Below, piece by piece: positions 25,731 to 55,487 of a DNA stretch of 64,000 bases. Made by a program: the position numbers and the translations under genes. Each line of letters starts with the position of its first letter. The first letter of the stretch is position 1. Source of the stretch: an uncultured Dokdonia sp. (GTDB lineage: Bacteria; Bacteroidota; Bacteroidia; Flavobacteriales; Flavobacteriaceae); NCBI RefSeq assembly GCF_947492535.1, contig NZ_CANLNH010000003.1:248001-312000 (forward strand), read 5' to 3'. The notes below the pieces were generated by a model, which saw nothing but the letters and a program-made list of their open reading frames with translations, was not told the origin of the DNA and did not search any database.

Positions 25731-25776
25731 CGAGAACGAGAATTGAACTCGTGTCCGCCTCTGGCGGATATGAATC
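25731..25776 (-). pseudogene. Degenerate tRNA 3'-half (relic att site) with palindrome insertion
   Basis: On the minus strand the T arm and acceptor 3' strand of the CAU tRNA half are preserved (25731-25753). The anticodon stem and variable loop are replaced by a palindrome, TCCGCC-TCT-GGCGGA (25754-25768). It is an imperfect third copy of the att sequence found at 26085-26129 and 55443-55487. No 5' half exists nearby, so it cannot be a working tRNA. Confidence 0.75.
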
Positions 25777-26084: not shown

Positions 26085-26129
26085 GTAGCGAGAACGAGAA
26101 TTGAACTCGTGACCTCCGGGTTATGAATT
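26085..26129 (-). repeat. attL: 45 bp tRNA(CAU) 3'-half direct repeat
   Basis: On the minus strand it reads as anticodon loop TTCATAA, stem and variable loop CCCGGAGGTC, T arm ACGAG-TTCAATT-CTCGT, acceptor TCTCGCT and discriminator A. It is identical to 55443-55487 over 45 bases. No matching tRNA 5' half is present to the right, so it is an orphan half. Confidence 0.9.
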
Positions 26130-26297: not shown

Positions 26298-27509
26298 ATG
26301 GCATCAGTAAAAATAATACTTTGGAAGCACGATAGAAAGAAAGATGGCACATTACCACTAGCAATTCGTATTACTAAAAACCGTAAAACGAGATATATTT
26401 TCACTGGTGAGTATATCGACGAAAAACATTGGGATGCAAAAGAACATACTGTAAAAAAATCTCATCCTACGTCCAAAAGACTTAATAATTTTCTTCTTAA
26501 GAAACTTTCGGAAGCACATAACATTGCTCTTGATGTTGAAACGAATGACAGCCAGAAAACAGTCAAAAACATCAAAACAATGATCGTGAATGATCGTAAT
26601 ACGAATTTCTTTGACGTTGCAGAAATATATCTTGAAGCTCTAAACAAAAGACAAAAATTTCATCAAGAGAATAACGATAGGGGGCGACTAAACATCTTTA
26701 AAAACTACCTAGGAAAGTCTGCATTAGATTTTAAAGATTTAGACGAGGATTTATTACAGAAATTCAAAAATCATCTTGCTTTTGAATTAAAGCGGTCTGA
26801 GCGCACTGTTGTTAATTATATGATCTTAATACGAACGATTTACAACTTAGCGATTTCAAAATCAATCACGGATAGAAATTCCTATCCATTTGGAAGAGGG
26901 AAGGTTCAAATTAAAATTCCCGAAAGCGAAAAGATAGGTCTCAATAGGGAAGAAGTATTACAACTTGAAAACATAGAGGATATAACACCTGCGCAACAAC
27001 ACGCTTTGAATGTTTGGTTGTTCAGCTTTTATTTTGCAGGTATTAGAGTAGGGGATGTTCTAAAATTAAAGTGGTCAGACTTTAAAGATGGGCGTTTATA
27101 TTATCGAATGGGTAAGAACAAGAAACTTGTTTCTTTAAAAGTACCAGATAAGGCACAAGCCATTTTAGATACTTATGCACAAGAAAAAATAAAAAGAACA
27201 GATTTAGTTTTTTCTGACCTTAAAGGCGTTGATTTTAATGATAAGAAATACCTAACAACACGTGTTAAAACCATTACACGTAATTTTAATAGGCGTTTAG
27301 AACTTATTGCGGAAAAGCTAGAGATTGATAAAAAGCTCTCAATGCACATCGCGCGTCATAGTTTTGGGAATATCTCAGGCGATAAAATCCCAATTCAAAT
27401 GCTACAAAAGCTTTATCGTCATTCGTCTATTACGACTACCGTGAATTATCAACAGAACTTCATGCATCAAGAAACCGATGAGGCATTGGATAAAGTGATT
27501 AATTTTTAG
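26298..27509 (+). CDS. int: Tyrosine recombinase, Bacteroidota mobile-element type
   Basis: A 403-residue integrase. Residues 1-75 are an arm-DNA-binding domain typical of Bacteroidota conjugative-transposon recombinases (TKNRKTRYIFTGEYI). Residues 103-195 are the core-binding SAM-like domain. Residues 215-403 form the catalytic domain with Arg250 (AGIRVGDVLKLKW), a Lys near 276, His350-x-x-Arg353 (HIARHSFGN), His375 and Tyr384 (VNYQ). Length and motif order are complete, so it should be active. It lies 168 bases inside attL and reads into the element, the standard place for the gene that drives integration and excision at the tRNA-derived site. It differs in type from the second integrase at 49.4 kb. 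Confidence 0.93.
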   Translation: MASVKIILWKHDRKKDGTLPLAIRITKNRKTRYIFTGEYIDEKHWDAKEHTVKKSHPTSKRLNNFLLKKLSEAHNIALDVETNDSQKTVKNIKTMIVNDRNTNFFDVAEIYLEALNKRQKFHQENNDRGRLNIFKNYLGKSALDFKDLDEDLLQKFKNHLAFELKRSERTVVNYMILIRTIYNLAISKSITDRNSYPFGRGKVQIKIPESEKIGLNREEVLQLENIEDITPAQQHALNVWLFSFYFAGIRVGDVLKLKWSDFKDGRLYYRMGKNKKLVSLKVPDKAQAILDTYAQEKIKRTDLVFSDLKGVDFNDKKYLTTRVKTITRNFNRRLELIAEKLEIDKKLSMHIARHSFGNISGDKIPIQMLQKLYRHSSITTTVNYQQNFMHQETDEALDKVINF

Positions 27510-31342: not shown

Positions 31343-33276
31343 TATTTGTATCGCTTTAGTTGGTTTTGCAAATAGGCTATTTGTTGCTCTAATAAACCTC
31401 TCGAAATTTCAGTTTTCATTTTTTCATCATACATCTCAGATAACTTCTTTTGTATTATTGGCTCGTCTATATTTCTTATTAAAGTTTCATGATAATTACT
31501 TCTTTCTTTATCGTTTAGATCTCTAAGCCAATTAATGCAATGGTCAATTTTACCTTTTGCGAAGTCACCAATAAGGCCATTACCTACAAAAAAGGAATCT
31601 GCCAGTAAATCCGTTATATTGGCTCCAAATGATCTTTTAGGTTCATTCCTTGTGTCAATTATTGAACGTACTCCTCTTTCCTCATTTATATATATAATAT
31701 TGTAGTTGAGCACATCCGAAAGCGTTAATGGGTCGTGAGTAGTAAAAATCACTTGAATTTTAGCCCCTAAATCACTGAAAAAGGTGTTGAGGAAATCTGT
31801 TGTTGATTTCACAAATTGTTTTTTCCATCTTGGATGAAAACCTAAATCAGCTTCATCTAAAAAAATATAATAATAAGGTTTTACAGTTTTTATCTTAATT
31901 TCCTTTATGTTCTTTTCAAAATAATCATGAATTCTTGAATAGAAATTCAATAAGGCATTCTCACCAGAACTTAGATTACTTTCGGACGGTTCAAAGTTTA
32001 GTATCCCTTCTATTCTTATGGTTCTAGAAAACAGTCGCTCACCATTTTTATTTTTAATGGCTCCATAATATTTATCAAGCTCAATTAAGAATTTATTATT
32101 TAACTTAATAAGTTTAATAGTATCTTCTTTATCTAGATAAATTGCTTTGTCATTCCAATCAAAAAAACTAGTATCTCGATCATCTTTCGTTTCAGCATTG
32201 TCAATAAGTATAAATAGTTGTTCAAGCAGGTTTATCATTTCATTGTCTGGTAACATTCGCACACGACTATCGCTTTTAATGACTTTAAGAGAATGAGATT
32301 TTAGAAACTTTACTAAGGCATCGTAGGCGTTTAGATCTTTTAAAAAATCGCTAAATTCTAGCCAATCAGGAGATAGTAAACCTTCTTCCAAAAAATCATT
32401 ACTTTTTTCCATTTGCTTTATTAGTAAACAAACGATGTCCATGAGTATATAATTTTTTAAAAGCTTCTTTTGTAGTTGTATTACACTAAATCCTTTAGGT
32501 CGGTTTTTGTTTATATTATTTGCCTCTTTTTTTATTTTTTCATAAATTATTTGAAGCGCTTCTCTAAATTGATTTGGAGTATTCCAAAACTCAATTGAAT
32601 CATCCTCCTGATCAATTTTAATTATGTGTCTAGTAAAGGTAAATTTACTCTTGCCAAACTCTGGAAAATTAAAATATGCTTTCAATTCTTTTCCGTACTT
32701 AGAATGCTGAAATTCAAGTTGTCGTAAAGAGTTTTTCATTTTAAGTCTTCTCAATGGAACAACTTCTGAGTTTGCTTGCTCAATATTATTAGCATTATCT
32801 AAATCTTCTTCTATGATTGTGTCTAGACTTAAATCTATACCCTCTACACCTTGATTATAATCTAAGAAGGGGGAATAGTATATTGTTTCCGCATTTATTC
32901 GTGCTGGTGAACATTCAAAATCAATATTAAAACCTTTATTTTTTGTATGTGTATTAGATGTTATGTAGACATTACCTAGTTGATCTTCAAAAATTGCAGT
33001 ATATCCAAAACCACTTCTGTTAAACCTATTTCCATGGCTGAGATTTTCAATAATAGTTTTAATAATAGAAGATTTTCCTACACCATTCTTACCGACTATA
33101 GCTGTTACAGAATCAATTGAATCTGTAGAATAAAAATTTGATATATAATTTTCATTCTTCTCTCTACGAACTGTTTTTTTATTTTTAAAAGTGTAATGAT
33201 ATTCACCTCCAAAGTTTATAGTTTGTGGTTCTTCAAACAAAAAGTGATCATCGAGATATAGAGCTACAATTTTCAT
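31342..33276 (-). CDS. ABC/OLD-type AAA ATPase, Septu PtuA-like
   Basis: A 644-residue ATPase using the ATG at 33276; a longer frame to 33309 would need TTG and adds 11 unconserved residues. It has Walker A (IVGKNGVGKSSI) near residue 65, an ABC signature LSSGENALLNF, Walker B YYIFLDEADLGFHP and an H-loop FTTHDPLTLSDV. The long middle section supplies an insertion or dimerisation region, as in PtuA and related overcoming-lysogenization-type ATPases. No Toprim domain is visible, which disfavours Gabija and classical OLD nucleases. Together with the overlapping HNH gene it forms a two-gene Septu-like antiphage unit. Other ATPase/HNH pairs cannot be ruled out without structure-based search. Confidence 0.82.
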   Translation of the reverse strand: MKIVALYLDDHFLFEEPQTINFGGEYHYTFKNKKTVRREKNENYISNFYSTDSIDSVTAIVGKNGVGKSSIIKTIIENLSHGNRFNRSGFGYTAIFEDQLGNVYITSNTHTKNKGFNIDFECSPARINAETIYYSPFLDYNQGVEGIDLSLDTIIEEDLDNANNIEQANSEVVPLRRLKMKNSLRQLEFQHSKYGKELKAYFNFPEFGKSKFTFTRHIIKIDQEDDSIEFWNTPNQFREALQIIYEKIKKEANNINKNRPKGFSVIQLQKKLLKNYILMDIVCLLIKQMEKSNDFLEEGLLSPDWLEFSDFLKDLNAYDALVKFLKSHSLKVIKSDSRVRMLPDNEMINLLEQLFILIDNAETKDDRDTSFFDWNDKAIYLDKEDTIKLIKLNNKFLIELDKYYGAIKNKNGERLFSRTIRIEGILNFEPSESNLSSGENALLNFYSRIHDYFEKNIKEIKIKTVKPYYYIFLDEADLGFHPRWKKQFVKSTTDFLNTFFSDLGAKIQVIFTTHDPLTLSDVLNYNIIYINEERGVRSIIDTRNEPKRSFGANITDLLADSFFVGNGLIGDFAKGKIDHCINWLRDLNDKERSNYHETLIRNIDEPIIQKKLSEMYDEKMKTEISRGLLEQQIAYLQNQLKRYK

Positions 33277-33411
33277 TAATTTAAAATTATTTAAATAGGT
33301 AATATACAATATTTTAAAAGTAAAAAGTAAGATTTTAATTTGATATTCTCTCTTAAATAATTAAAATATATTGTGCGTATTATATTCTGATTTTTCTGTC
33401 ATCATCCTTGC

Positions 33412-39183: not shown

Positions 39184-39534
39184 ATGAAACAACCCAAGAA
39201 AAGCGAAAAGCGACAGCGGAATAAATTTATCATCTTCAGAGCAACCGAAGAAGAAAAACAATCCTTTCTTGATCTGGCAGAAAAGTCAGGATTAAGTCCT
39301 GCTGATTATTTTCGTAAATCAACGCTTGGAACAAAGCCGTTGAAGCCGACAAATGATACTAAGTTATTAGCAAAGATGTTGGCAGAATGGGGGCGCATAG
39401 GAAGCAACCTTAATCAGATTGCACGACATTACAATTCTGGAACGGCGACCGATCAGGAATTAGGACTTGATATTATAGATAAGGTTGAGAATATCCGCAC
39501 CGATCTACGTAAAGCATTGGGGTATGATCTGTAA
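39184..39534 (+). CDS. mobC: MobC-like relaxosome protein
   Basis: A 116-residue basic protein with the MobC pattern: an N-terminal ribbon-helix-helix-like stretch (KFIIFRATEEEKQSFLDLAEKSGLS-ADYFRK) and the diagnostic IGSNLNQIARHYN at about 79-91. MobC binds oriT and helps the relaxase open the DNA. Its stop overlaps the relaxase start by 11 bases, so the two are coupled. The candidate oriT lies directly upstream. Confidence 0.9.
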   Translation: MKQPKKSEKRQRNKFIIFRATEEEKQSFLDLAEKSGLSPADYFRKSTLGTKPLKPTNDTKLLAKMLAEWGRIGSNLNQIARHYNSGTATDQELGLDIIDKVENIRTDLRKALGYDL

Positions 39535-40594
39535 AGGTGGCACACGATCATATCCAACCTCTTTAGCACAGCATCTTTTAAAGACAGATAATGAGCGTGT
39601 TGTTGTTGTGGAGTTGAAACACACCGCCACACAGGATTTAAAGCAAGCTTTAAATGATATGCACGCGACCATTGCAATGACGCAGGGTAAAAAAAGTCTT
39701 TATCACGCGCAAATTAACCCCGCAAAAGATGAGCAAATGACTTCCCCTCAATGGCTCTATGCTGTTGATGAAATGGAGCGGCGCTTGGGCTTTGTTGATC
39801 AACCTCGCGCCGTAGTCTATCACGAAAAGAAAGGTCGCGCCCATATGCACGTTGTTTGGCAACGTACCGATATTGAAAAAGGCAAAGTCATTGAAACCAG
39901 TAATGACTATTACATTCATAAAAAACTTGGACGAGATTTAGAGCGTAAGTTCAAACACAAAGAACTCAAAGCTGAGTTTAGTGAGAATTGGGAAAAGATG
40001 AATGAGCGTGAGCAGACAGCTCGTGACGGTTATCTAAGCCCGAAACAATTAAAAGCTCGTATTAAACAACTTTATAAAAATCATTCAGATCCGAAAGAGT
40101 TTCAAAAGGCTTTAAAAAAAGCAAAGTTTGACTTAGCAAAAGGAAATCGTGGTTTGGTGATTGTTAGCTCTAAAAATCAAATACATTCTTTAGGGCGATA
40201 TACAGGGCAAAAGAAGAAGGATATTGAAAAGCATTTAAAACCGATACTAGAGTACTTGCCAGATGCTACTGAATTTGTAAAAAAACGAGAGAAGCAACAA
40301 TCTAAAATCAAAGCAATGAATCCTAAACCAAAAGCAAAAACGATAGTTGAAAATGCTTTTGATATTCTAAGTAGGGATGAGATCGGCAAGACAGCCGCCA
40401 AGTTTGATAAACTCAAACAGGAATTTAAGCAAAAACAATTTGAGAAACTTCGGAAAGAATTTACCGATAATCAAGATGCTTTTAATACTGTATCTCCGTC
40501 TGTCAGGGAAGGTTTTGAACAAGTCAAACGTGACCTCGAACGCCAAAATGAAGAGGAGCGCAAACGTAAAAAGGAAAGAGAATACAAACGATAA
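39524..40594 (+). CDS. mobA: MobA/VirD2-type relaxase
   Basis: A 356-residue relaxase. I use the ATG at 39524 (MICKGG), which matches the usual relaxase N-terminus; an earlier ATG at 39485 would overlap mobC by 50 bases. It has YHAQINPA at about 60-67, the three-His metal motif HEKKGRAHMHVVW (His100, His107, His109) at 100-112, and a Lys/Glu-rich C-terminal coiled region ending in a basic tail. It nicks oriT and stays bound to the transferred strand. It is followed after 11 bases by a small coiled-coil gene in the same operon. The element also carries a MobF-type relaxase, which is unusual. Confidence 0.88.
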   Translation: MICKGGTRSYPTSLAQHLLKTDNERVVVVELKHTATQDLKQALNDMHATIAMTQGKKSLYHAQINPAKDEQMTSPQWLYAVDEMERRLGFVDQPRAVVYHEKKGRAHMHVVWQRTDIEKGKVIETSNDYYIHKKLGRDLERKFKHKELKAEFSENWEKMNEREQTARDGYLSPKQLKARIKQLYKNHSDPKEFQKALKKAKFDLAKGNRGLVIVSSKNQIHSLGRYTGQKKKDIEKHLKPILEYLPDATEFVKKREKQQSKIKAMNPKPKAKTIVENAFDILSRDEIGKTAAKFDKLKQEFKQKQFEKLRKEFTDNQDAFNTVSPSVREGFEQVKRDLERQNEEERKRKKEREYKR

Positions 40595-42501: not shown

Positions 42502-45159
42502 GTGATACGGATATTTCAGAGTAAGACCGCAAGTCACGCTAAAAATTATTTTAGAGAGGCACTCTCGCAAGGTGATTATTATATTGAAGGTCAAGAAACC
42601 AAAGGCGTGTTTAATGGTAAAATAGCTAAACGTCTAGGGCTTGAAGGTAAACCTATTGATAAACAAAGCTTTGATAGTTTATGTGACAATTTACACCCCG
42701 TTACAGGAGAAACACTAACTCCAAGAACATTAAAAGATAGACGGATTGGCAATGATATTAGCTTTCATTGTCCTAAATCTGTTTCTATTCTTTTAGGTTT
42801 GACCCGTAATGACAATATCCGTCAAGCCATTGATCAAAGTGTTTTTGAAACAATGCAAGAAATGCAAGACAATATGTTTGTGCGCGTGCGTTCCAAAGGT
42901 CGTAATGAGGATAAACCCACAGGGGAGATGCTTTGGTGTGATTTCCCCCATAGGACGGCGAGAGCTGTGAAGGGACACGTACCAGACCCACATTATCATA
43001 TTCACTGCCTGACAATGAATTTGACATTTAGTGAGGAAGATAACCGTTTTAAAGCAGCACAGTTTTATTATATCCGAAAAGATATGCCATACTATCAAGC
43101 TCGGTTTCATAAGCGACTGGCTGATAAGTTGGACGCATTGGGGTTTAATACTAGAAAAACTGCTAAAGGTTTTGAGTTGTGTCTTGTTCCACAAAAGGCG
43201 ATTGAGAATTTTTCTAAGCGCACCAATTTAATTGGTCAGATAGCACAAGAAAATAATATCACTCATCCTAAAGCACTTGATAAACTGGGAGGAATAACAC
43301 GAGAGAAGAAAGACAAGAGTCTTAACCTTTCTCAGTTGGAGGATGTTTGGCGTTCACAATTGGAAAGTCAAAATCTTTTTGATGATGACTTGATAGAAAA
43401 AGCAACAACCGACAATAACTTAACGGCTAGTAAGGCAGTAAAACACGCTTTATCACATTGTTTTGCCAATAGCTCTGTAAAGCGTGAAACTCAAATTTTA
43501 GCGCAAGCTTACATACATGCTATCGATAACCCAAATGTAACATTAAGAGCCATCGATACCACTTTAAATGAAAAAGAAGACGTCTTTAAAGTAACAGCCG
43601 ATTACCAGACCTATTGCACGACTGAATCTATTAAGGAGGAAGAAAAACAAATGATTTCGCTTGCCCGTTCAAGTATTGGCAAAGTTCCTCCATTGGTACA
43701 GAATTTTGATAAATCAACATTTCAGTTCCTAAATGAAGAACAGCAAAAGGCTATTTCGTATGTAATGCGTTCTAAAAATAGGATTAACATTATAAAGGGT
43801 GGAGCAGGAACAGGGAAAACCACGCTTTTAAAAAGCATTGTTCCTGAAATTGAACAATCAGGCAAACAAGTTTTTCTATTTACCCCAACAGCAGAGGCAT
43901 CAAGAGGGGTGTTAAAAAGTGAAGGATTTGAAAAGGCTGATACACTTGCAAAGCTATTAACCGATAAAAAGTTACAACAGAAAACTAAAGATCAAGTTAT
44001 TTGGATAGATGAAGCAGGACTTATCGGTACGCAAGATATGGTGAAACTCTTAGAACTTGCAGTGACATTAGATACTCGTATTGTCCTTTCAGGTGATGCA
44101 AAACAGCATAATGCCGTCAAACGGGGGGATGCTCTTAGACTATTACAAGAAATTGGGCGTATTCCTTATGCTAGTGTGACAAGCATATACAGGCAAAAAA
44201 CAGAAGATTATAAAACTGCTATCCGTGAGATAAGCGAAGGCAACATTGTTTCAGGATTTGAGCATTTAGAGACTATGGGAAGCATTCAGGAAGTAGATGT
44301 ATCTGAAATGAACGATTTGCTTGTTAGCGACTATTTAAAGACTAGGGAACAGAAAAAAATAGCATTGGTTATTTCACCAACAAGAGAAAAGGTGAGGGAG
44401 TTAAATATCCAAATCCGAAAAGGTTTACAACAAAGGGGCGTTGTTTCTAAAAAAGAGCACAGTTTTACGATTTTTGATAATTGCCATTATAGCCTTGTTC
44501 AAAAACAAGACCCAAGAACCTACCGACAAGGGCAGATCATACAAACCCATTGGAATATGAAAGGTATTATAAAGGGGAGTGTGTTAAGCATTATAGAGGT
44601 AAGAAACAATGAAATCATTGTCGAAAACGGTGGGGGTGCAAACTTCAAATTACACCTATCTAATGCTAAAGATTTTGATATCTATATTCCTAGAGCTGTT
44701 GAATTAAGCAAAGGCGATGAAATAAGATTAAATAAGAACAGTACAGATTTAAAAGGAAAACGTTTAAATAATGGAACTACTCTTACAATCGGAGGATTTA
44801 CAACAAAAGGGCATATCAAAGCATTTACAGTTTCAGGCAAAAGAAGGTTTGAATACCTACTTGATAGACGACATGGTAATTATGACTTAGCATATTGCAC
44901 CACCTCTTACAGTTCGCAGGGCAAAACTGTAGATAAAGTCATCATTGCGCAACCTGCATCAACATTTCCCGCAAGTGACCAAAAGCAGTTCTATGTTTCG
45001 ACATCACGGGCGAGGGAAGATGTGACTATTTACACAGATGATAAGGAACTGCTTTTAGATGCTATTAAGGTATCAGGGAACAGATTGGGTGCCATAGAAA
45101 TGGCTATATCAAACATTGTGTCAATTAGAAAACAAAAACATTCTAAAAAGTTAGAATAA
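42502..45159 (+). CDS. MobF (TrwC/TraA-type) relaxase-helicase
   Basis: An 885-residue bifunctional protein starting at GTG, preceded by the Shine-Dalgarno TAAAGGA. The N-terminal TrwC relaxase domain (1-300) has two adjacent Tyr at 26-27 (GDYYIEGQE) and a three-His metal site, DPHYHIHCLTMN (His164, His166, His168). The C-terminal half is a RecD/TraI-like superfamily 1 helicase: Walker A IIKGGAGTGKTTLL (about 431-444), Walker B VIWIDEAGLIG, SGDAKQHNAVKRGD, and motif VI in TTSYSSQGKTVDKVII. It nicks and unwinds DNA for conjugative transfer. MobF relaxases of this type are best known from Proteobacteria. Its presence alongside MobA suggests a fusion of two mobilization systems. Confidence 0.92.
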   Translation: MIRIFQSKTASHAKNYFREALSQGDYYIEGQETKGVFNGKIAKRLGLEGKPIDKQSFDSLCDNLHPVTGETLTPRTLKDRRIGNDISFHCPKSVSILLGLTRNDNIRQAIDQSVFETMQEMQDNMFVRVRSKGRNEDKPTGEMLWCDFPHRTARAVKGHVPDPHYHIHCLTMNLTFSEEDNRFKAAQFYYIRKDMPYYQARFHKRLADKLDALGFNTRKTAKGFELCLVPQKAIENFSKRTNLIGQIAQENNITHPKALDKLGGITREKKDKSLNLSQLEDVWRSQLESQNLFDDDLIEKATTDNNLTASKAVKHALSHCFANSSVKRETQILAQAYIHAIDNPNVTLRAIDTTLNEKEDVFKVTADYQTYCTTESIKEEEKQMISLARSSIGKVPPLVQNFDKSTFQFLNEEQQKAISYVMRSKNRINIIKGGAGTGKTTLLKSIVPEIEQSGKQVFLFTPTAEASRGVLKSEGFEKADTLAKLLTDKKLQQKTKDQVIWIDEAGLIGTQDMVKLLELAVTLDTRIVLSGDAKQHNAVKRGDALRLLQEIGRIPYASVTSIYRQKTEDYKTAIREISEGNIVSGFEHLETMGSIQEVDVSEMNDLLVSDYLKTREQKKIALVISPTREKVRELNIQIRKGLQQRGVVSKKEHSFTIFDNCHYSLVQKQDPRTYRQGQIIQTHWNMKGIIKGSVLSIIEVRNNEIIVENGGGANFKLHLSNAKDFDIYIPRAVELSKGDEIRLNKNSTDLKGKRLNNGTTLTIGGFTTKGHIKAFTVSGKRRFEYLLDRRHGNYDLAYCTTSYSSQGKTVDKVIIAQPASTFPASDQKQFYVSTSRAREDVTIYTDDKELLLDAIKVSGNRLGAIEMAISNIVSIRKQKHSKKLE

Positions 45160-46575: not shown

Positions 46576-47206
46576 GGTTGAAGTTTTAGAGTTTAAACAA
46601 AAATAAGTTTCATAAATGCTATAGCGTGTTCAAAAGATTTTCAAAATTGTATGTTGCAATTTTAATTTCTTTTTTTTCATTTCTTAAAAATTAGAATTGG
46701 ATAGATTTTGGTGACTATCATTATTAGTGATATGGTAGTTTTGGGAAGGGTATAACGAAAAGTTTAATAAAATTAATGGCATTTTTTGAAATTCCCTTAC
46801 GGGTTTCCGTAAAGACTTGTGAATTTTATAGATATTTATTCCACCTATGAAAATTCTTAACTTTTCATATCGATTGGTTTTATTTCCAAAAATAAATTTG
46901 TTATACTATGAAATAAATACCCTGTATCGGGTATTTATTGATTTTGGTAAATTATCACATAAATTCTCATTACATGTAGTTACATTTTACATCATACAAA
47001 TACAATGCTACGATGTGTGGCAAAACTGCTGACAATTTAACCCAGAGAAATATTGACTTTTGTATTTGATATTGTTTTCAAAGGTTTAGTGAGTACTTTT
47101 AAAGCTTCAGTAGAGCTTAACAGGAATTACTACTCGAAACAGTCAAAAATACAGGGAATAGACTTGAAGCTTTGAAAGTTTTTAAAAATAATTATGAATG
47201 TAAGGT
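46576..47206. other. Intergenic region ending in att-like repeat
   Basis: 630 bases with no convincing gene (a 61-codon frame at 46847-47032 is not supported). Its right part, 46981-47123, is the first copy of the att-like direct repeat described separately. The rest is A+T-rich. Confidence 0.6.
46981..47123. repeat. Att-like direct repeat, copy 1
   Basis: Imperfect copy of 49031-49171. Shared blocks are ATTTTAC, CATACA, AATGCTAC, GTGTG-CAAAACTGCTGACAA, TATTGTTTTCAAAGGTTT and the terminal core CTTAACAG (47116-47123). Beyond the core the two copies are unrelated. One shared arm, a short core and different outer sequences are what integrase attachment junctions look like. Confidence 0.8.
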
Positions 47207-47210
47207 TTAA

Positions 47211-48881
47211 TTATGGGCTTGGTGACCAAGCTTTTTTCTTAGTTGAACCAATGTATTTGTTGTTTTCCCAATATCCAGAAAGTATTCTCCCGTTACGATA
47301 GGTATAAACACCTTTGCCTGTTTTTTCACCATCAATAAAACCTCCAGTGTATTTATCTCCATCATTCCAAATGAAAGTCCCTTTGCCTGTTCTTTTATTA
47401 TCAATAAAATCCCCCGTATATTTGTTTCTACTTTTCCAAATATAAGTCCCTTTACCTGTCCTTTTACCATCAATAAAATCCCCCGTATATTTATCTCCAT
47501 CATTCCAAATGAAAGTCCCTTTGCCTGTTCTTTCACCATCAATAAAATCTCCCGTATATTTATCTCCATCATTCCAAATGAAGGTCCCTTTGCCTGTTCT
47601 TTTATTTTCAACAAAATCTCCCGTGTATTTATCTCCATCATTCCAAATGAGAGTCCCTTTACCTGATCTTTTGTCATCAACATAATCCCCAATATATTTA
47701 TATCCATTTTTCGAGATGTAAACGCCGTTGCCATTGTATAAACCCATTTTCCAGCCCCCTTGGTAAATGCTCCCAGTATTATAATAATAAGTACCATAGC
47801 CGTTTTGTGCACTATCCTCCCAGTCACCTTGGTATACCCCATCATAATTATAATAAGTGCCGTAGCCATTTGTCTTACCATTTACCCAGTCACCTTGGTA
47901 TACGCGATCATCATAATAGTGAGTGCCATAACCGTTTTGTGTACCATCCTCCCAATCACCTTGATGGATGTCGTCACCATCATTTGAGTAATAGGTACCA
48001 TAGCCATCTTCCTTATCGTTTTTCCAATTACCTTGATAGATATCGTTATTAGCATAGTAACGAGTGCCATAACCATTTGCTTTACCGCTTACCCAGTTTC
48101 CTTCATAAACGCCACCATCATTGAAATAACGAGTGCCATAACCATTTTCTTTATCGTTTTTAAAGTCACCAACATAGATATCACCATTAGCGTAATGATA
48201 GACGCTATGACCGCTTTTACCATTATTTTTCCAAGTGCCTCGGTAGACACCGCCGTCATTAAAGTAATAAAAGCCGTATCCATCTTTTTTACCATCTTCC
48301 CATTCCCCAGCATATGTGCCGTTAGAATATGTGATATATCCTTTTTTAGAAAAGTTTTCAGATTTGCGCTTGTTTAAGTTACGATAATACCACTTAAACT
48401 CTGCTGGCTTAATTGGTTTTTGACTGGAAATGCTATCAAATTCTGATGGTTTGTATCTTAAACTATATGGCTTGGTAGGTTTTTCAGGTTTAATAAATTC
48501 AGACATTTCTACTGATGGTTCGTATGCTTGCTCTGTCTGAGGTGCGGGGTCAGGATTAGGCACTCCGGTTGTAATGCTGTCTTTATTCTCGTTGCATTGT
48601 CTTATTAACCAAAGTCCAAAGATACAAGCTCCAATAATTTTCATTGTAGACCAAGTTGATTTAGAATTAGACTTGTTACTGTTCTTCTTTTTTGGTTTAG
48701 GACGTGGCTTAGATTTCTGTTGATTAGACTGTTTAGAACGAGATTTTTGAGATGATTGCTTTGGCTCAGGTTTAGGTTTAGGATCAGGCTTGTTCTGCCA
48801 GTTTCCGCCAGCGCCAGCGCACATACTACAACCGCCTATTTTTCCCTGACAATACTCACATTTTTCCCATACTGATGGCAT
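47211..48881 (-). CDS. MORN-repeat protein with zinc-ribbon and membrane anchor
   Basis: A 556-residue protein. Residues 1-30 contain a Cys-rich ribbon (CEYCQ, then CSMCAGAGG). Residues 30-75 are a Lys/Pro/Ser-rich linker. A single transmembrane helix is at about 82-97 (IIGACIFGLWLIRQCN). The rest is an array of about 15 MORN units of roughly 23 residues plus one degenerate unit (core Y-G-W or Y-G-F with G-G), with six highly similar C-terminal copies. MORN repeats often bind lipids or act as scaffolds. Adjacent units are so alike in DNA that copy number is probably unstable. The gene is flanked by direct att-like repeats, so it appears to be a mobile cassette. Confidence 0.88.
   Translation of the reverse strand: MPSVWEKCEYCQGKIGGCSMCAGAGGNWQNKPDPKPKPEPKQSSQKSRSKQSNQQKSKPRPKPKKKNSNKSNSKSTWSTMKIIGACIFGLWLIRQCNENKDSITTGVPNPDPAPQTEQAYEPSVEMSEFIKPEKPTKPYSLRYKPSEFDSISSQKPIKPAEFKWYYRNLNKRKSENFSKKGYITYSNGTYAGEWEDGKKDGYGFYYFNDGGVYRGTWKNNGKSGHSVYHYANGDIYVGDFKNDKENGYGTRYFNDGGVYEGNWVSGKANGYGTRYYANNDIYQGNWKNDKEDGYGTYYSNDGDDIHQGDWEDGTQNGYGTHYYDDRVYQGDWVNGKTNGYGTYYNYDGVYQGDWEDSAQNGYGTYYYNTGSIYQGGWKMGLYNGNGVYISKNGYKYIGDYVDDKRSGKGTLIWNDGDKYTGDFVENKRTGKGTFIWNDGDKYTGDFIDGERTGKGTFIWNDGDKYTGDFIDGKRTGKGTYIWKSRNKYTGDFIDNKRTGKGTFIWNDGDKYTGGFIDGEKTGKGVYTYRNGRILSGYWENNKYIGSTKKKAWSPSP
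47325..47710 (-). repeat. 69 bp tandem repeats within MORN gene
   Basis: Near-identical 69 bp units encode consecutive KYTGDF-D-RTGKGTFIWNDGD MORN repeats. Similarity extends to silent positions, so units were copied recently. These are coding repeats, not CRISPR: no spacers and no unit separation. Confidence 0.88.
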
Positions 48882-49030
48882 GTTAACTCAATTCATTAGA
48901 TTGTTAATGATTTATTTCAATGTAAGTTTAGACATAAAACAGTTAATTTGCAAATCTAATCATTTGATTATTAGTAATTACAGAAAGTGAATTGTTTTTT
49001 TAGGTATAATTTTTGATTGTATAAAATTGC

Positions 49031-49171
49031 ATTTTACTTCATACACATAAAATGCTACAATGTGTGACAAAACTGCTGACAAATCAACCAAGTGAAATCT
49101 TAAATTTTACATTTTATATTGTTTTCAAAGGTTTGGTAAATGTTTTTAAGGTTCTAGCAGTACCTTAACAG
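49031..49171. repeat. Att-like direct repeat, copy 2
   Basis: Second copy of the repeat at 46981-47123, ending in the core CTTAACAG (49164-49171). It contains TGTGTGACAAAACTGCTGACA (49061-49081), whose TGACAAAA parts recur at 49411-49435 in the integrase gene. At the core it joins a tRNA-Asn 5' half. Confidence 0.8.
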
Positions 49172-49202
49172 TCATTTGCTCTACCAACTGAGCTATCAGG
49201 GA
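49165..49202 (-). pseudogene. tRNA-Asn(GUU) 5' half
   Basis: On the minus strand it has acceptor TCCCTGA, TA, D arm GCTC-AGTTGGTA-GAGC, A, anticodon stem AATGA and loop CTGTTAA: a perfect 38-nt 5' half that stops at the anticodon loop, where tyrosine integrases commonly cross over. No 3' half follows; the sequence runs into the att-like repeat instead, so no functional tRNA is made. Confidence 0.85.
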
Positions 49203-49376
49203 ATGTCATTAAAAATGAACAGATAGGTGTATAATCATTTTTTCAAAGCTTGTCTACACTTTTTTGAAAATACTGATCTATAAAGCTTATAGAGTTTTTT
49301 AGTGCGTACCTATAGTTAGAAAAAGACAATATCAATGTGTTTGTGATTTCGCTTCAACGAAAGGACAGATTGCATA

Positions 49377-50819
49377 ATGTTGCATCAAAACTCATACAAT
49401 GTTGGTACAAGTGGTGACAAAAGTGGTGACAAAACGGGTAGGTCTATCAAATTTACCGATGTTACTATTCGTCATTTAAAGCCAACTTCTAAAAAAATGG
49501 AGTATTCCTGTGAGGGATTAGAGGGTTTTAAAATACGTGTATTACCAAGTGGTACAAAAACGTGGCTTTACACATACACATTTTCTAATAAACGCAGAAA
49601 AATGAGTTTAGGCCGATACCCTAAAGTCTCATTAAGTCAGGCAATGATTCTCTATCAACAAGCTTTGGAGAAGGTTGAAAACGGTGTTGATCCGCTTGGA
49701 GAGCGTCAAAAAGAAAAGCAAAAAGATTTTGACGCGATGACAGTTGCAAGATTGGTAGAGCTGTATTTAGAATTCTGTGAAAAATCAGGTAAGCAAAGCT
49801 ACCACAATGAAAGAAAGTGTTTTAAGAAAGACCTTTTACCGTATTTAGGGAAGGTCAATATCAAGGAGGTTGAGCCTAAACATCTCTCTAAGATATTTCA
49901 CCGCATAACGGTCGAAAGAAACGCGCCTAGTATGGCAAAACATCTTTATAGCTATACAAGGCGTTTATTTAATTTCGCCGCTGATATGGGACTGATGCGC
50001 CGTAGAGACAATCCTTGTTTGGATATTAAGCTTAGTGTTAAAAATAACAAACGTAGTCGGCACCTTAACCCTAAAGAGATTTATCTATTTTGGTATGGAT
50101 TAGATCACATCAAAATGTCGCCTGTTACACGCCTAGCTTTAAGATTTATGCTTGTAACGGTTGCGCGTGGGGGTGAAGTGCGCCAAATGAAATGGTCAGA
50201 TATAGATTTTCAAGAGTGTATATGGACACTTCCCAAAACAAAAAATGGTCATTTGCACCGTATCTATTTAGGTGAAGAGGCGTTTAAAATTCTTGACGAA
50301 GTATCTCAATATTCAGATGGAAAGGGTTATGTTTTTGGTTCTGCGGGTAGTTATGCACGAACAGGAAAAGTGATGAATGATCTAAAACCGCTAAGTGGAC
50401 GCACGCTTTGCCAACCAATCAAGCGACATTTTGAAGTCTTTGGGATTGAAAAACCTTTTATACCTCATGATTTAAGACGTACAGGGGCTACAATTATTGC
50501 AGGACTATTTGGGAGGCAAGATTTAGTAAAACTCTGTCTTAATCATGTTAGAGGCGATGTAACCGCTATTTATGATCAATATACCTATGGCGCAGAAAAG
50601 AAAAGGGCAATGGAAGCCCTCAATAAAGCAATACGACGTATTATCAGTAGTGCAAATATTGAGAGCGTTCCGACTTTTGATGATTTAAAAGAAGATGTAT
50701 TTGAAACACCAAGAAAACCTATTGTTAATCATTCGAAGGTTGATCAAAACAAACAGGGTTTGCAAGCCAGTTTTTCAAATCCTGTAACCTATAAGCTTTC
50801 CTTTGACCGCCTTTCGTGA
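49377..50819 (+). CDS. int: DUF4102/P4-type tyrosine integrase
   Basis: A 480-residue integrase of the proteobacterial island type. After an N-terminal extension (1-22), residues 23-110 form the DUF4102 arm-binding domain (FTDVTIRHLKPTSKKMEYSC, LGRYPKVSLSQA). A core-binding domain follows (about 120-205), then the catalytic domain: Arg264 (ARGGEVRQMKWSDID), Lys near 287, His364-x-x-Arg367 (PHDLRRTGATI), His390 and Tyr near 399-402 (YDQY). Its Shine-Dalgarno is GAAAGGA. It is preceded by the att-like repeat with its tRNA-Asn half, and its first codons contain the same TGACAAAA arm motif. It is complete and is the second recombinase in the element, of a different family from the one at 26.3 kb. 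Confidence 0.92.
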   Translation: MLHQNSYNVGTSGDKSGDKTGRSIKFTDVTIRHLKPTSKKMEYSCEGLEGFKIRVLPSGTKTWLYTYTFSNKRRKMSLGRYPKVSLSQAMILYQQALEKVENGVDPLGERQKEKQKDFDAMTVARLVELYLEFCEKSGKQSYHNERKCFKKDLLPYLGKVNIKEVEPKHLSKIFHRITVERNAPSMAKHLYSYTRRLFNFAADMGLMRRRDNPCLDIKLSVKNNKRSRHLNPKEIYLFWYGLDHIKMSPVTRLALRFMLVTVARGGEVRQMKWSDIDFQECIWTLPKTKNGHLHRIYLGEEAFKILDEVSQYSDGKGYVFGSAGSYARTGKVMNDLKPLSGRTLCQPIKRHFEVFGIEKPFIPHDLRRTGATIIAGLFGRQDLVKLCLNHVRGDVTAIYDQYTYGAEKKRAMEALNKAIRRIISSANIESVPTFDDLKEDVFETPRKPIVNHSKVDQNKQGLQASFSNPVTYKLSFDRLS

Positions 50820-51009
50820 TGGCGTAAAGTTTTGGGAATTGCCCAATTTTACGCATTCTGTATTGAGTGGTTTTATCAAGAGTTGTTGCCAGTTCTACGG
50901 TTTTAATGGATGCAAACGCATTCATTTGAAGTAGGAGTTGTGCAACAACTCTGTCTTCTTGTTCAGGGTCAATCAAGACAACAGCATTCTTTTCAATGGT
51001 TTTAAGCAT
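50725..51009 (-). CDS. AlpA-like HTH regulator
   Basis: A 94-residue protein using the ATG at 51009, which has the Shine-Dalgarno AAAAGGAAA; an upstream start at 51027 is less supported. Residues about 40-88 resemble the AlpA/Xis-like HTH (TTQYRMRKIGQFPKLYAIT, then YRLQDLKNWLANP). AlpA-type proteins control excision and integrase expression in P4-like islands, which fits its place beside a DUF4102 integrase. The 3' end overlaps the end of the integrase gene by 95 bases on the opposite strand. The next regulator, Xre-type, is divergent. Confidence 0.75.
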   Translation of the reverse strand: MLKTIEKNAVVLIDPEQEDRVVAQLLLQMNAFASIKTVELATTLDKTTQYRMRKIGQFPKLYAITKGGQRKAYRLQDLKNWLANPVCFDQPSND

Positions 51010-51070
51010 AGAGTTTCCTTTTATCAATTTAAGATAGGGGAAGGGATATAAATGAGTGTATTTGTATCAC

Positions 51071-51142: not shown

Positions 51143-51197
51143 TTTGATTAGTCAGGCGGTTTGTAAAAGAACCTCATTCAACCATAAGGAGAAAATA

Positions 51198-51530
51198 ATG
51201 AATGCTGATAAATCAAACTTTAAAAAATGTACGCGTGATGATTTCTTGAAAATTGTCGTTCGTCCAATGATTGCTAGAAGGAAGGAGCTAAGATTAACCC
51301 AAGATGATGTCAATTATAAATTAGGAGTTGCTGATCGCTTGGTCAGTAAATGGGAGTGTGGTTTACGTACACCAAGCTCATTTAACCTTCATTGTTGGGC
51401 GGAAGTTTTAAAAGGGTCTATCATTTTTAAAACAGATCCTGACCCAATCACGCTAAACTCGATTGTTAAAAATAAAAATGCAAATGATAATTTTAAAAGG
51501 AATAAGGCTAGTAATGATAACATATACTAG
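51198..51530 (+). CDS. Xre-family HTH regulator
   Basis: A 110-residue protein using the ATG at 51198, which has a strong Shine-Dalgarno AAGGAGA; a longer frame to 51144 lacks one. Residues about 20-60 contain an Xre-type HTH (RKELRLTQDDVNYKLGVADR-VSKWECGLRTPS), typical of mobile-element and phage repressors. A disordered Asn/Lys tail follows. It is divergent from the AlpA-like gene across a region with inverted repeats, and probably regulates the backbone. Confidence 0.85.
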   Translation: MNADKSNFKKCTRDDFLKIVVRPMIARRKELRLTQDDVNYKLGVADRLVSKWECGLRTPSSFNLHCWAEVLKGSIIFKTDPDPITLNSIVKNKNANDNFKRNKASNDNIY

Positions 51531-51690: not shown

Positions 51691-52857
51691 ATGATAAGAG
51701 AGAATCATGATGCTCCTGGTCAGATGCAGGGATATATTTACCAACTTGAAAGAGCGTTACTACAATTAAGTCAAACCAATTATGGGGGAATGGTAGGTGT
51801 AGAAACTGGAGACGATGTTGTTGTTAAATTTTCTGATCAATCAAATTCTAAACATATTTATGAGCAGGATAAGCATTCAATATCAAATAAATTACCTTTT
51901 TCTGACTTAAGTAAAGATTTATGGAATACTTTATTAATTTGGATTTCAGCAATTAAAAAGAATAAAATTTCCGTAGATAATTCATCTTTCTTAATGGTAA
52001 CTAATAAAAAACTTCCATTATCTAGGTTTGTCTGGAAGATAAATAGAGCTTTAACTCTTGAATCATCATTGGAATGTGTGGGTCAATTGAGAGTAATTGG
52101 AGCAAAACATAATGGTAAATTACTGCCTACAATAGAAAAAGTATTAGGATATAGTGATGAAGAACTAGCTATGCTTATATTAAAAATTCATGTTCTGGAT
52201 GGTAAAACTAATCACAATAGAAACGAATATAAAAAGCAAATTAAAAATAATTTAGGACTTGATGATAATCTCCCTTTTAATGAAATTTATAATGATTTGC
52301 TTGGATGGGTACTAGACTCTGTAATAGATCTTTGGGATAAAAATAAAGGTGCATGGCTGAAGGTCAGTAAATTACATGAAAGAAAAAATAGTCTAATAGC
52401 TAGGTATCATTCTAAACCATTTATAGAACGTGCAGTTAAAAATATTCCTATAAATGAAAATCAAAGATTAGCAGAAAAAAATAAAAATTTTGTTAGGCAA
52501 TTACAAATAATAAAATGTACTGAAGAAAATATTTTAGATGCTATCGATGATTACTTAAGGGCTTCTATAGAAAGAACTCGTTATGCAGAAGAAGCTCGTG
52601 TGTCTTCTCAAGATTTTGATGAATTTGAATATAATCTAATAGAAAGATGGAAAAATATTTTTGGTAGCGAAGTTGATGAATCTAAAAAGATTATATCAGG
52701 AAAAAAGATATACTTTAAAACTACTAATCATAAGGAGAAATTAATGGGTGTAGAAACAGATCAGTACTACACAACAAGAGGAACATACCAAAGATTGTCA
52801 AATAAATTACTGCTAGGGTGGCATCCAGAATGGAAAGAGTTAATAGAAGAAAAATAG
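51691..52857 (+). CDS. ABC-3C system nuclease component (DUF4297/Cap4-like + CTD)
   Basis: A 388-residue protein. The N-terminal 150 residues resemble the DUF4297/Cap4 family of PD-(D/E)xK nucleases: GQMQGYIYQLERALLQL, VGVETGDDVVVKF with Glu38 and Asp41-Asp42, then EQDKHS with Gln59-x-Lys61, followed by PFSDLSKDLWNTL-IWI. The C-terminal half is the conserved domain of ABC-three-component effectors, ending in GWHPEWKEL. It is followed by the middle component and DUF3732 ATPase, the fixed order of ABC-3C systems, which are predicted to sense invading DNA or proteins via the ATPase and then activate the effector. This gene supplies the likely DNA-cleaving effector. Confidence 0.8.
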   Translation: MIRENHDAPGQMQGYIYQLERALLQLSQTNYGGMVGVETGDDVVVKFSDQSNSKHIYEQDKHSISNKLPFSDLSKDLWNTLLIWISAIKKNKISVDNSSFLMVTNKKLPLSRFVWKINRALTLESSLECVGQLRVIGAKHNGKLLPTIEKVLGYSDEELAMLILKIHVLDGKTNHNRNEYKKQIKNNLGLDDNLPFNEIYNDLLGWVLDSVIDLWDKNKGAWLKVSKLHERKNSLIARYHSKPFIERAVKNIPINENQRLAEKNKNFVRQLQIIKCTEENILDAIDDYLRASIERTRYAEEARVSSQDFDEFEYNLIERWKNIFGSEVDESKKIISGKKIYFKTTNHKEKLMGVETDQYYTTRGTYQRLSNKLLLGWHPEWKELIEEK

Positions 52858-53336
52858 AACTTAGTGAATATGATATAGTTCAAAATTATATTATTGGATC
52901 ACATATACTTAGAGAGTTTGTGAAATTTTATCAACGGTATTCACAAGAAAACATTGGTCCTGAATTAATTCTTACGATGCCTATATTACCATTGGTATTG
53001 AATAAGTCTTCATCATTTGAAATAAGTAAAAGGCATTATATAGAAGGAGGTTTAATGAAAACCATTTATGATGATAAAACTCTGTATGTAGGATTGCAAA
53101 ATCGGATGGAAAAAATGTATGATCTATCTTTAAAATCTTTGTCTATGTGTTTTTCTTCAGGACTTTTGAATTATGATAAAAATACATCAAGATTAACTAT
53201 TATAGATGAAGCTAATCCTAATTTACAATATGCTGAAAACTACAAACAAATTCTTCGCGCTTCAAGAAGACTAGGGGCTTGGTTTGCAAAACTATCTATT
53301 GAAGAATTAACTACTATTTTTAAAATTAAGTTTTGA
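52830..53336 (+). CDS. ABC-3C middle component
   Basis: A 168-residue protein using the ATG at 52830, which overlaps the preceding stop by 28 bases; a longer GTG frame from 52818 is possible. It is mostly helical, with the middle-component pattern: a central LILTMPILPLVLNKS, then LYVGLQNRMEKMYDLSLKSL, and a C-terminal KILRASRRLGAWFAKL-like helix (actual sequence KQILRASRRLGAWFAKL). It is predicted to bridge the nuclease and the ATPase. The stop is one base from the ATPase start, so the three genes form a coupled operon. Confidence 0.82.
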   Translation: MERVNRRKIELSEYDIVQNYIIGSHILREFVKFYQRYSQENIGPELILTMPILPLVLNKSSSFEISKRHYIEGGLMKTIYDDKTLYVGLQNRMEKMYDLSLKSLSMCFSSGLLNYDKNTSRLTIIDEANPNLQYAENYKQILRASRRLGAWFAKLSIEELTTIFKIKF

Positions 53337-53337
53337 T

Positions 53338-55329
53338 ATGAATTTTAATATTAGCAAAATAATACTATGGTCTAAAGACGTAAGCTTTAAGCCTAGAGAA
53401 ATTGATTTTAAATTAGGTAAAATTAATGTTATCACTGGTGATAGTGAAAGAGGTAAGTCAGCTTTAATAGCTATCGTTGATTATGTTTTGTGTAGTAGTA
53501 AATGTCAGATTCCTGTTGGTATAAGAGATTATGTGGAATGGTTTGGAGTTCTTTTTAAGCTAGATGATAGTGAAATATTACTAGCTAGAAAAGAACCAGG
53601 TGTATTTCTAACTAATGGTGATATGTTTAGTCGTGAGAGAAAAAAAATAAATACAATACCTACAATAATAGAAAAAACGACAACTGTTGAATCTGTTAAA
53701 ATTAGATTAAATGAAATAGCTGGCTTATCTGATTTAGAAATTTTAGATGAAGAAGGAAATCAATTTGGTTTTGGTTCTAAGCCTAGTTTTAGAGACATGG
53801 TTTCATTTTTATTTCAACCACAATATATAATAGCAAACCAAAGAACTTTATTTTATAAAACTGACTCCTATGAGCATAGAGAGAAAATACGTAATATATT
53901 TCCTTATGTCTTAGGAGCTATTGACAATGAAACTTTGCGAAATCAGCAAAAATTGAAGGAATTAAGAAAAGAGTTAAAAAGTTTAGAGAAAGATTTTAAT
54001 AACATACAAAAAGGAATAGAAAAGTGGCTAGGTGAGATACGTGGTATATATATGCAAGCAAAAGAGTATGGTTTATTAACAAAAAGACCATATCCTAGCG
54101 ATAAATGGAAACCTATAGATTTTATTAGAATATTAAAACAAATACCTAAAGCTATTGATAAAGTAGGCGTTCCATTAATTGCAGTTGGTAGTACAGATAA
54201 AATTACTGATAGAATATCAGTTTTGAAACAAAAAGAAATTTCCTTTGCAAAGGAAATAGAGAAACTAAGATCAAAACAATCTTTAATTAAGGGCATTTCA
54301 AAAACTAATAATGAGTACACAAATTCAATTTTGATTCAAAATGAAAGATTAAAAAGTGTAGGTTGGTTTAAAAAAAGAATAAAACAAGAAACAGATTGTC
54401 CTTTATGTGGTACTAAGCATAAAAATGCAAATGAATATATAGACTTAATATTAAATGCTAGTAAAACAATAGAAACAAAAGCAGCACAAGCTAACGATAC
54501 TAGAATAATTTTTGATAATGAAATATTCAAAATTAATAGTGATCTAAAAACAACAGAAAAGACTTTAAATGAAATTAGACAAGAACTAAATAGATTACTC
54601 AAACAGGATAGTAAATACAAAAACAGTAGACAAACAATAAATAATATATATCGATTTGTTGGAGAATTAGAAGCTAAAATCTCTGCGTACGATGTTATAA
54701 GTGTAGATGGAGAATTAATTAAGTTAATAAATAAATTGTCTAATGAAATAAAAGTATTAGAAGATAAAGTTGATAATAGTTTAATTAAACAAAAGGAGAA
54801 AAATGCTTTAAATAGAATTCGATCCTCTATTAGTTATTATTCAGATATTTTTAAAGCAGAAAGATATAATGACCCTGTGGGATTGAATATAATGGATTTA
54901 ACTTTAGACTTTGGTAGTGATACAGGGCGAGTAGATAAACTTTGGGAAATAGGTAGCGGATCTAATTATATGGCTTATCACATATCTACTATGTTAGCTC
55001 TTCATGAATTATTCTTGAGACATGATAATCATCCAGTCCCTAATTTCATTTTTTTTGATCAGCCTAGTCAAGCTTATTTTCCTGAAATGAAAATAAAATC
55101 TGAAGATCAAATTTCTGATGCTAAGCAAGAAGATATTTTAAGAGTAAAGAGAATCTTTCAAGTATTATCTAATTGCTTAACAGAAAGAACAGATGGAAAA
55201 TTACAAATTATAGTTTTAGAACATGCAGGACCTAGTATATGGGATGAATTTTCAGAAGTACATAAAGTTGCTCGTTGGAGAGATGATGAAGAAGAAAAAG
55301 CATTGATACCTGAAGAATGGATGAATTAA
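53338..55329 (+). CDS. ABC-3C DUF3732 SMC/Rad50-like ATPase
   Basis: A 663-residue ATPase of the DUF3732 family. Walker A is GDSERGKSAL (about 34-43). Long helical arms with a zinc-hook-like CPLCG (about 354-358) follow, then the signature region EIGSGSNYMAYH (about 537) and Walker B FIFFDQPSQAYFP (about 569-581). The two halves come together as an SMC-like head with a coiled coil between, as in Rad50. DUF3732 ATPases head the ABC-three-component conflict systems described by Krishnan, Burroughs, Iyer and Aravind. This is the sensor/motor of the set. Its stop lies about 110 bases from attR, so the operon is at the extreme right end of the element. Confidence 0.85.
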   Translation: MNFNISKIILWSKDVSFKPREIDFKLGKINVITGDSERGKSALIAIVDYVLCSSKCQIPVGIRDYVEWFGVLFKLDDSEILLARKEPGVFLTNGDMFSRERKKINTIPTIIEKTTTVESVKIRLNEIAGLSDLEILDEEGNQFGFGSKPSFRDMVSFLFQPQYIIANQRTLFYKTDSYEHREKIRNIFPYVLGAIDNETLRNQQKLKELRKELKSLEKDFNNIQKGIEKWLGEIRGIYMQAKEYGLLTKRPYPSDKWKPIDFIRILKQIPKAIDKVGVPLIAVGSTDKITDRISVLKQKEISFAKEIEKLRSKQSLIKGISKTNNEYTNSILIQNERLKSVGWFKKRIKQETDCPLCGTKHKNANEYIDLILNASKTIETKAAQANDTRIIFDNEIFKINSDLKTTEKTLNEIRQELNRLLKQDSKYKNSRQTINNIYRFVGELEAKISAYDVISVDGELIKLINKLSNEIKVLEDKVDNSLIKQKEKNALNRIRSSISYYSDIFKAERYNDPVGLNIMDLTLDFGSDTGRVDKLWEIGSGSNYMAYHISTMLALHELFLRHDNHPVPNFIFFDQPSQAYFPEMKIKSEDQISDAKQEDILRVKRIFQVLSNCLTERTDGKLQIIVLEHAGPSIWDEFSEVHKVARWRDDEEEKALIPEEWMN

Positions 55330-55442: not shown

Positions 55443-55487
55443 GTAGCGAGAACGAGAATTGAACTCGTGACCTCCGGGTTATGAATT
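55443..55487 (-). repeat. attR: 45 bp tRNA(CAU) 3'-half direct repeat
   Basis: Identical over 45 bases to 26085-26129. To its right, where an interrupted tRNA gene would keep its 5' half, there is only A/T-rich spacer, so the element is not in an intact tRNA gene here. Confidence 0.9.

Follow-up and report, generated by a model that had tools for sequence, protein, structure and literature searches.

We analysed a 64,000-nucleotide stretch of the genome of an uncultured Dokdonia sp. (contig NZ_CANLNH010000003.1, positions 248,001 to 312,000), hereafter called the window. It contains a genomic island of about 29.4 kb (26085-55486) with two integrase genes, int1 and int2. Judged by its anatomy, this is probably a dual-integrase mobilizable defence island. 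Its second attachment site, attP2, holds the 5' half of a tRNA gene that seems foreign to the present hosts and could rebuild a target gene elsewhere. The island was compared with three related ones, from a Winogradskyella, an Aquaticitalea and a metagenome-assembled genome (MAG) of Bacteroidia.

The island encloses, besides int2, two direct repeats at 46959-47113 (copy 1) and 49006-49160 (copy 2), which align without gaps (121 of 155 positions identical, 78%; E = 3.7e-32 for the second copy). The alignment runs on through the core CTTAACAG at 47116-47123 and 49164-49171, so that the cores are spaced by 2,048 bp. The core octamer alone is not rare (four occurrences in the window, 2.41 expected). 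The repeat itself is: the genome of the window (4.86 Mb in 73 contigs) holds just two copies at E <= 0.001. Thus an earlier reading of the window, made from sequence only, had rightly described direct repeats with a common core that enclose one gene, 2048 bp from core to core.

Copy 2 with its core occupies 49006..49171 on the forward strand. It is continued by a 38-nt 5' half of a tRNA-Asn(GTT) gene on the reverse strand (49165..49202). The half stops with the last base of the anticodon loop, at its 3' edge, and is identical in 38 of 38 positions to the corresponding part of whole tRNA-Asn(GTT) genes elsewhere; the perfect half cut at the anticodon loop, as claimed by the sequence-only reading, is therefore real. 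No whole tRNA was found in the window either by Rfam at the gathering threshold or by ARAGORN. The presumed overlap TTAACAG corresponds to the anticodon loop and is the 7-base overlap expected of a crossover there; the core of attP2 would thus be the tRNA anticodon loop.

An element that brings the 5' half of a gene must also supply the upstream part of that gene. A candidate promoter was noticed by eye on the same strand (49228..49256), formed by TAGACA at 49256-49251 and TATACA at 49233-49228 with a 17 bp spacer. The aligned relatives have TGGACA-17-TATACA at the matching place. It is probable from these patterns that the tRNA half has a promoter of its own, and after integration the promoter-driven half would rebuild the target gene.

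The half and its leader are followed by int2 (49377..50819, forward strand), a tyrosine integrase with Arm-DNA-bind_3 and Phage_integrase domains. Residues R264, K289, H364, R367, H390 and Y399, to which we ascribe catalytic roles, are present in all four int2 proteins. Two direct repeats TGGTGACAAA, 12 bp apart, lie within the first int2 codons (49412..49433, forward strand) and are candidate P-arm sites. An open reading frame (ORF) of 100 amino acids, convergent with int2 and overlapping its 3' end (50725..51027, reverse strand), is 66-67% identical in the relatives and may encode an excisionase. The next small ORF (51144..51530, forward strand), 50-55% identical in the relatives, is a possible regulator. 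Neither has a Pfam match.

The order P' arm, core, tRNA 5' half, leader, int2 is the same in all four islands. In this arrangement the 155 bp repeat would be the P' arm of attP2 with predicted integrase arm-binding sites, as suggested by matching motifs. These arm-type motifs, picked by eye, are found at offsets -107, +231 and +243 from the half (-104, +234 and +246 for the shorter motif of the window), with the exception of Winogradskyella, where only -107 and +243 are occupied. The motif is TTTGCTTC(C/T)AAA in Aquaticitalea and the MAG, TTGCTAACCAAA in Winogradskyella, and TG(C/G)TGACAAA in the window; the copy in the P' arm of the window's attP2 is TGCTGACAAA at 49074. Within each element the P and P' motifs agree to within one base; between elements they differ. 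The arm domain of the Winogradskyella int2 (difference in alignment columns 26-115) is only 64% identical to that of the MAG and Aquaticitalea proteins, whereas the rest is 94-95% identical, and the motif differs as well. At the same time, the leaders of Aquaticitalea and Winogradskyella are 93% identical and their halves 100% identical. On sequence comparison, the arms, the int2 arm domain and the arm sites behave as one unit that changes together. Close to the right flank of the Winogradskyella island, the window's P' arm also has a 65-bp match on the opposite strand (69%, E = 8e-5).

Integration of such an element places the P' arm and the integrase side at opposite ends. Here they flank one core in four islands, and copy 2 is therefore best read as an intact attP. 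An integrase with conserved residues adjoins it, the tRNA fragment ends at the crossover point, and the core is flanked on either side by arm-type sites, recognized by sequence only. An attL or attR identity of copy 2 was rejected, as both arms and the half are in place here and in the three relatives. Copy 2, the half and int2 together thus probably form a complete and apparently unrecombined attP with its integrase. The sequence-only reading was right about the anatomy of a tyrosine-integrase attachment site, with a crossover in the anticodon loop, a shared arm, a short core, different outer sides and a link to the second integrase. However, its view of copy 2 as one boundary of a cassette is not supported: together with the tRNA half, copy 2 is a complete attP, retained beside int2 in all four islands.

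The island itself is bounded by 3' halves of tRNA-Met on the reverse strand, the left one (26085..26128) being identical over 44 bp to the right one (55443..55486). The first integrase gene, int1 (Arm-DNA-bind_5; 26298..27509, forward strand), lies beside the left end. The backbone also includes a TrwC-type relaxase common to all three relatives (42502..45159, forward strand), and the island further carries a second relaxase set of the MobA/NikA type, a coupling protein and RadC. Thus an integrase, attachment-site ends and a relaxase inside these ends, the marks of an integrative and mobilizable island, are all present. From the int2 module to the right end the cargo consists of genes matching the Lamassu-type defence proteins LmuA, LmuC and LmuB (51691..55329, forward strand).

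All four islands share one plan. The left part consists of the tRNA-Met fragment, int1, variable cargo, RadC, more cargo, mobilization genes and TrwC. It is followed by variable cargo, the P' arm, core, tRNA 5' half, leader and int2, the convergent small ORF, the second small ORF, cargo, and the tRNA-Met end. The mobilization genes between RadC and TrwC are common to the three relatives and mostly different in the window. The cargo left of attP2 differs by island: MORN in the window, and in the others a KAP NTPase, a DNA/RNA nuclease with other genes, or a KAP NTPase with a sub-threshold QueC-type match. The right end of all three relatives' islands carries a whole tRNA-Met, unlike the window, where the tRNA-Met copy occupied by the island seems to have been broken beforehand.

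Since each island has a first integrase and tRNA-Met ends, int2 with attP2 constitutes a second integration system. The island sits between tRNA-Met 3' halves beside int1, and therefore attP2 appears to be unused in the present host and hence has stayed whole; the anatomy is directly visible, whereas its use is deduced. The identity of the window proteins to those of the relatives is similar for int1 (63-64%), TrwC (53-54%) and int2 (62-63%), and int2 thus belongs to the island backbone. This bears on another explanation, according to which a tRNA-Met island captured a separate int2 element from another host whole, copy 1 being what is left at the end of another, decayed int2 element. Composite islands are known, such as CGI48 carrying GI21 (PMC8978831), and copy 1, 78% identical to copy 2, looks as the end of a sibling element could. 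However, the int2 module, int1 and the relaxase occur together in four of four islands at similar divergence, making a recent capture unlikely, and the genome contains one int2 (E <= 1e-60) and one tRNA half (at up to three mismatches). We regard a composite origin as unlikely.

Close relatives of int2 are few. The scan of genome contigs, seeded by exact 8-residue patterns so that some relatives may have escaped, confirmed four int2 loci: those of Winogradskyella, the Bacteroidia MAG and Aquaticitalea (62-63% identity) and one distant locus (31%). Matches were found in two of 397 genomes of the family, including the window's own (E <= 1e-60). The order and class samples each yielded that genome only (one of 395 at E <= 1e-100, and one of 395 at E <= 1e-30, respectively). 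Among 68 genomes of the genus of the Winogradskyella genome, int2 was seen in that genome only. In a fifth genome, from the genus of the window, int1 is diverged (54%), and the 40 kb examined contain none of the other backbone genes.

The tRNA half differs between the islands. It is that of tRNA-Asn (GTT) in the window and that of tRNA-Phe (GAA) in the relatives. Identity of the window to the relatives is 89.5% in the half, 60-62% in the leader and 56-58% in the P' arm (shuffle means 48-49%, maxima 55-56%). Four of the 38 positions of the half differ, namely two in the anticodon, one in a stem and the first base, a pattern fitting a tRNA-Asn (GTT) compared with a tRNA-Phe (GAA), given the first bases typical of these two tRNAs.

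Within the family (397 genomes, up to two mismatches in 32 nt) the half was found only in the two int2 islands. In the phylum of Novosphingobium, the Pseudomonadota (299 genomes, up to one mismatch in 37 nt), three genomes contain it, one of them exactly, within whole tRNA-Asn genes. Combined with the exactly matching tRNA, the half forms seven of seven acceptor and five of five anticodon-stem pairs; with the tRNA-Asn of the host it forms four of seven and three of five. The identity of the half to the host tRNA-Asn, 19 of 38, is ungapped and understates the likeness, the host D loop being one base longer. The host tRNA as a source of the half was rejected, as its own genome contains no other match (up to three mismatches in 31 nt) and the host tRNA-Asn differs.

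As the half does not fit the tRNA-Asn of the host and equals that of a genome from another phylum, the second system, int2 with attP2, most likely serves hosts outside the flavobacterial family. A bolder formulation is that flavobacterial defence islands carry two complete systems for different phyla. Here int1 would act on tRNA-Met in Bacteroidota, and int2 on proteobacterial tRNA-Asn or tRNA-Phe through a promoter-driven 5' half, so that the island could land in a distant host and leave the tRNA gene intact; Phe and Asn would have replaced one another as target, and the int2 arm domain would have been exchanged together with its arm sites. We put this forward tentatively, as it is more doubtful than probable.

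A number of observations weigh against the idea of a second, foreign-host system. Firstly, no int2-mediated integration was found, and no integrated copy in a cognate tRNA gene was seen in the limited genome samples. In the family of the exactly matching genome, 22 of 40 genomes have an integrase match, all just 23-31% identical to int2. Plasmid records contain no int2 match at 1e-60; at 1e-20 there are 133 below 60% identity, with none above 30% among the 20 matches listed. No int2 match at 1e-40 was found in phages. Secondly, near matches to the half are widespread in plasmid records: Halomonas and Pseudomonas lead with 94.9% over 39 nt, and values nearly as high come from Paenibacillus, with 92.5% over 40 nt, and from a plasmid of Parabacteroides, with 94.1% over 34 nt. 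Such non-proteobacterial matches weaken the cross-phylum interpretation. The whole genomes searched for the half were only those of the host family and of the phylum of Novosphingobium. The tRNA-Phe half of the relatives has no exact match in viral contigs and no match with up to one mismatch in the 299 genomes. Thirdly, three of the four islands are closely related, which leaves about two independent cases. The arm motifs at up to two mismatches match their own island often (43 times for the 10-base window motif; 21, 13 and 10 times for the 12-base motifs). A consensus promoter scan, which requires the second hexamer to end in T, omitted the candidate promoter, and its site counts were close to shuffle means. 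Finally, the exact half is present in the tRNA-Asn genes of two viral contigs.

The last observation makes a phage tRNA gene a possible source or target of the half. No close relatives of int2 were found in viral contigs. Many of the best matches to the half in annotated phages are labelled tRNA-Asn or tRNA-Phe, those near full length coming mostly from Pseudomonas phages; the best phage match to the relatives' tRNA-Phe half is 94.6% identical, and its exact source was not found. Flavobacterium phages were dismissed as a source, as 64 of their records match the half at E <= 1 and are absent from the counts named at E <= 1e-4. One could suppose that int2 inserts the island into phage-borne tRNA-Asn or tRNA-Phe genes, in agreement with the two viral contigs and the labels of the phage matches. 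However, the exact half also occurs in a bacterial genome, the island has mobilization genes of the conjugation type, and the Pfam search, which covered part of the genes, named no packaging gene. Insertion into phage genes is thus very improbable.

The upstream copy of the repeat requires a separate explanation. Copy 1 (46959..47123, forward strand) consists of a P'-type arm with the arm-type motif TGCTGACAAT at 47027, which differs at one position from the motif belonging to the int2 of the window, followed by the core. Judging by sequence, it looks like a second P' arm and core of attP2 specificity joined to other DNA. Its identity to copy 2 ends at the edge of TTAACAG, and no clear tRNA half follows, in agreement with the claim of the sequence-only reading that copy 1 continues into unrelated DNA. 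We do not claim a decayed tRNA half to the right of this core, where only CAGGGAAT matches in eight of eight positions at a similar distance, nor one at the left edge of the Winogradskyella cargo, where the scan score was below the best background scores. The short segment right of the core (47124..47210, no strand assigned) is a candidate non-tRNA partner half of an int2-type recombination. A part of it (47155-47207) is similar, over 55 bp at 76% identity, to the DNA with which the cargo left of attP2 begins in Winogradskyella (6190-6242 of that locus; E = 4.8e-4; score 56, compared with at most 43 in 200 shuffles).

Between the two copies lies the gene of a MORN-repeat protein of 556 amino acids (47211..48881, reverse strand). 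It has ten MORN stretches and is the sole long ORF with a family match between the repeats. PADLOC gave no match for it. Nine plasmid records contain relatives, all below 60% identity.

The gene may have been trapped by int2, because int2 recombination of attP2 with a non-tRNA partner would leave a junction ending at the edge of the overlap. Most likely, an older recombination of this type with a non-tRNA site would have made the copy 1 junction and left MORN between two arms, this being the weakest step of the proposed scheme and seen in a single case. A somewhat unlikely competitor is that the attP2 arm was simply duplicated, either by copying or through homologous exchange between islands, with MORN there by chance and int2 uninvolved. 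Cargo left of attP2 turns over freely, and nothing here ties int2 activity to copy 1. On the other hand, the repeat ends at the overlap edge, where an integrase would join DNA, a correspondence noticed after the fact.

The sequence-only reading had hinted at a cassette-gathering system. In its developed form, int2 inserts small arm-core circles at a resident attP2, MORN being one of these cassettes. Two arm-core copies alike in specificity do enclose one gene, the repeat identity stops at the edge of the 7-base overlap, and the cargo left of attP2 differs in each island. However, none of the three relatives has a second P' arm, their only further arm matches within the island being on the P side at the int2 start, and the genome of the window has just two copies. 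The approximately 85 bp between the first core and the MORN stop codon, at the left end of the would-be unit, contain no direct-repeat P-arm pair of the kind seen in int2. Other cargo segments are equally variable, and arms were not found there. Multi-cassette arrays with shared sites, as in integrons, were found neither in the genome of the window nor in the three relatives. The Arm-DNA-bind_3 match of int2 and the arm-type sites speak against an integron-type integrase; no integron-integrase profile was run. Cassette capture is therefore distinctly unlikely, and the trapping of MORN by an older int2-type event is preferred.

Each ingredient of the proposed arrangement is already known: islands with 5' tRNA fragments, elements with several integrases, composite islands, and elements replacing tRNA function. 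A 5' tRNA fragment is reported for 159 of 3,919 Islander islands (PMC4383910). These islands similarly have a tyrosine integrase, a crossover in the anticodon loop and an attP with a tRNA part restoring the gene on integration. Unlike them, the fragment considered here was not found among tRNAs of the host family, and its attP lies whole inside an island inserted at another tRNA by another integrase. The pTN3-like integrases (PMC8371274) differ in being archaeal, and the text consulted does not mention a second integrase. The tripartite integrative and conjugative elements of Mesorhizobium (PMC5882170) also have several integrases, excisionases and attachment sites per element, and their rdfG is convergent with intG, like the small ORF with int2. 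However, those elements are split and assembled within one host by means of all their sites, whereas here one seems to be unused. CGI48 with GI21 (PMC8978831) likewise combines two integration units in a tRNA island, but GI21 excises as an inserted island, whereas here an intact attP has no second end. In tRNA-dependent lysogeny (PMC10865867), there are an integrase acting on a tRNA gene, a core of about 10 bp, putative arm-type sites, and an own promoter for the tRNA function supplied by the element; those phages supply a whole tRNA, whereas attP2 contains a 5' half. The literature searched did not show this combination: a foreign tRNA half in an attP that appears to be unused and is conserved among islands seated by means of another integrase. 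This does not prove that it is unpublished.

If int2 works in another phylum, these islands would be a ready example of two landing systems for two kinds of hosts, and would allow the passage of defence genes between phyla to be studied directly. They would also be a natural set showing joint change of an integrase arm domain and the DNA sites it binds, as well as a switch of tRNA target, which would help to read integrase specificity from sequence.

Several other features of the region were observed. Two relaxase families coexist in one island, NikA/MobA at 39184-40594 and TrwC at 42502-45159, the former being unmatched in the islands of the relatives. The first cargo segment contains a candidate defence pair, PDC-M62A/B, at 30410-33309. 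A third tRNA-Met 3' fragment is present at 25731-25753 in addition to the two island ends, with no intact tRNA in the window. To the left of the island (867-24970) there are six adjacent genes on one strand, encoding proteins of 195 to 2,826 amino acids, the longest of which contains repeats that look Ig-like by eye.

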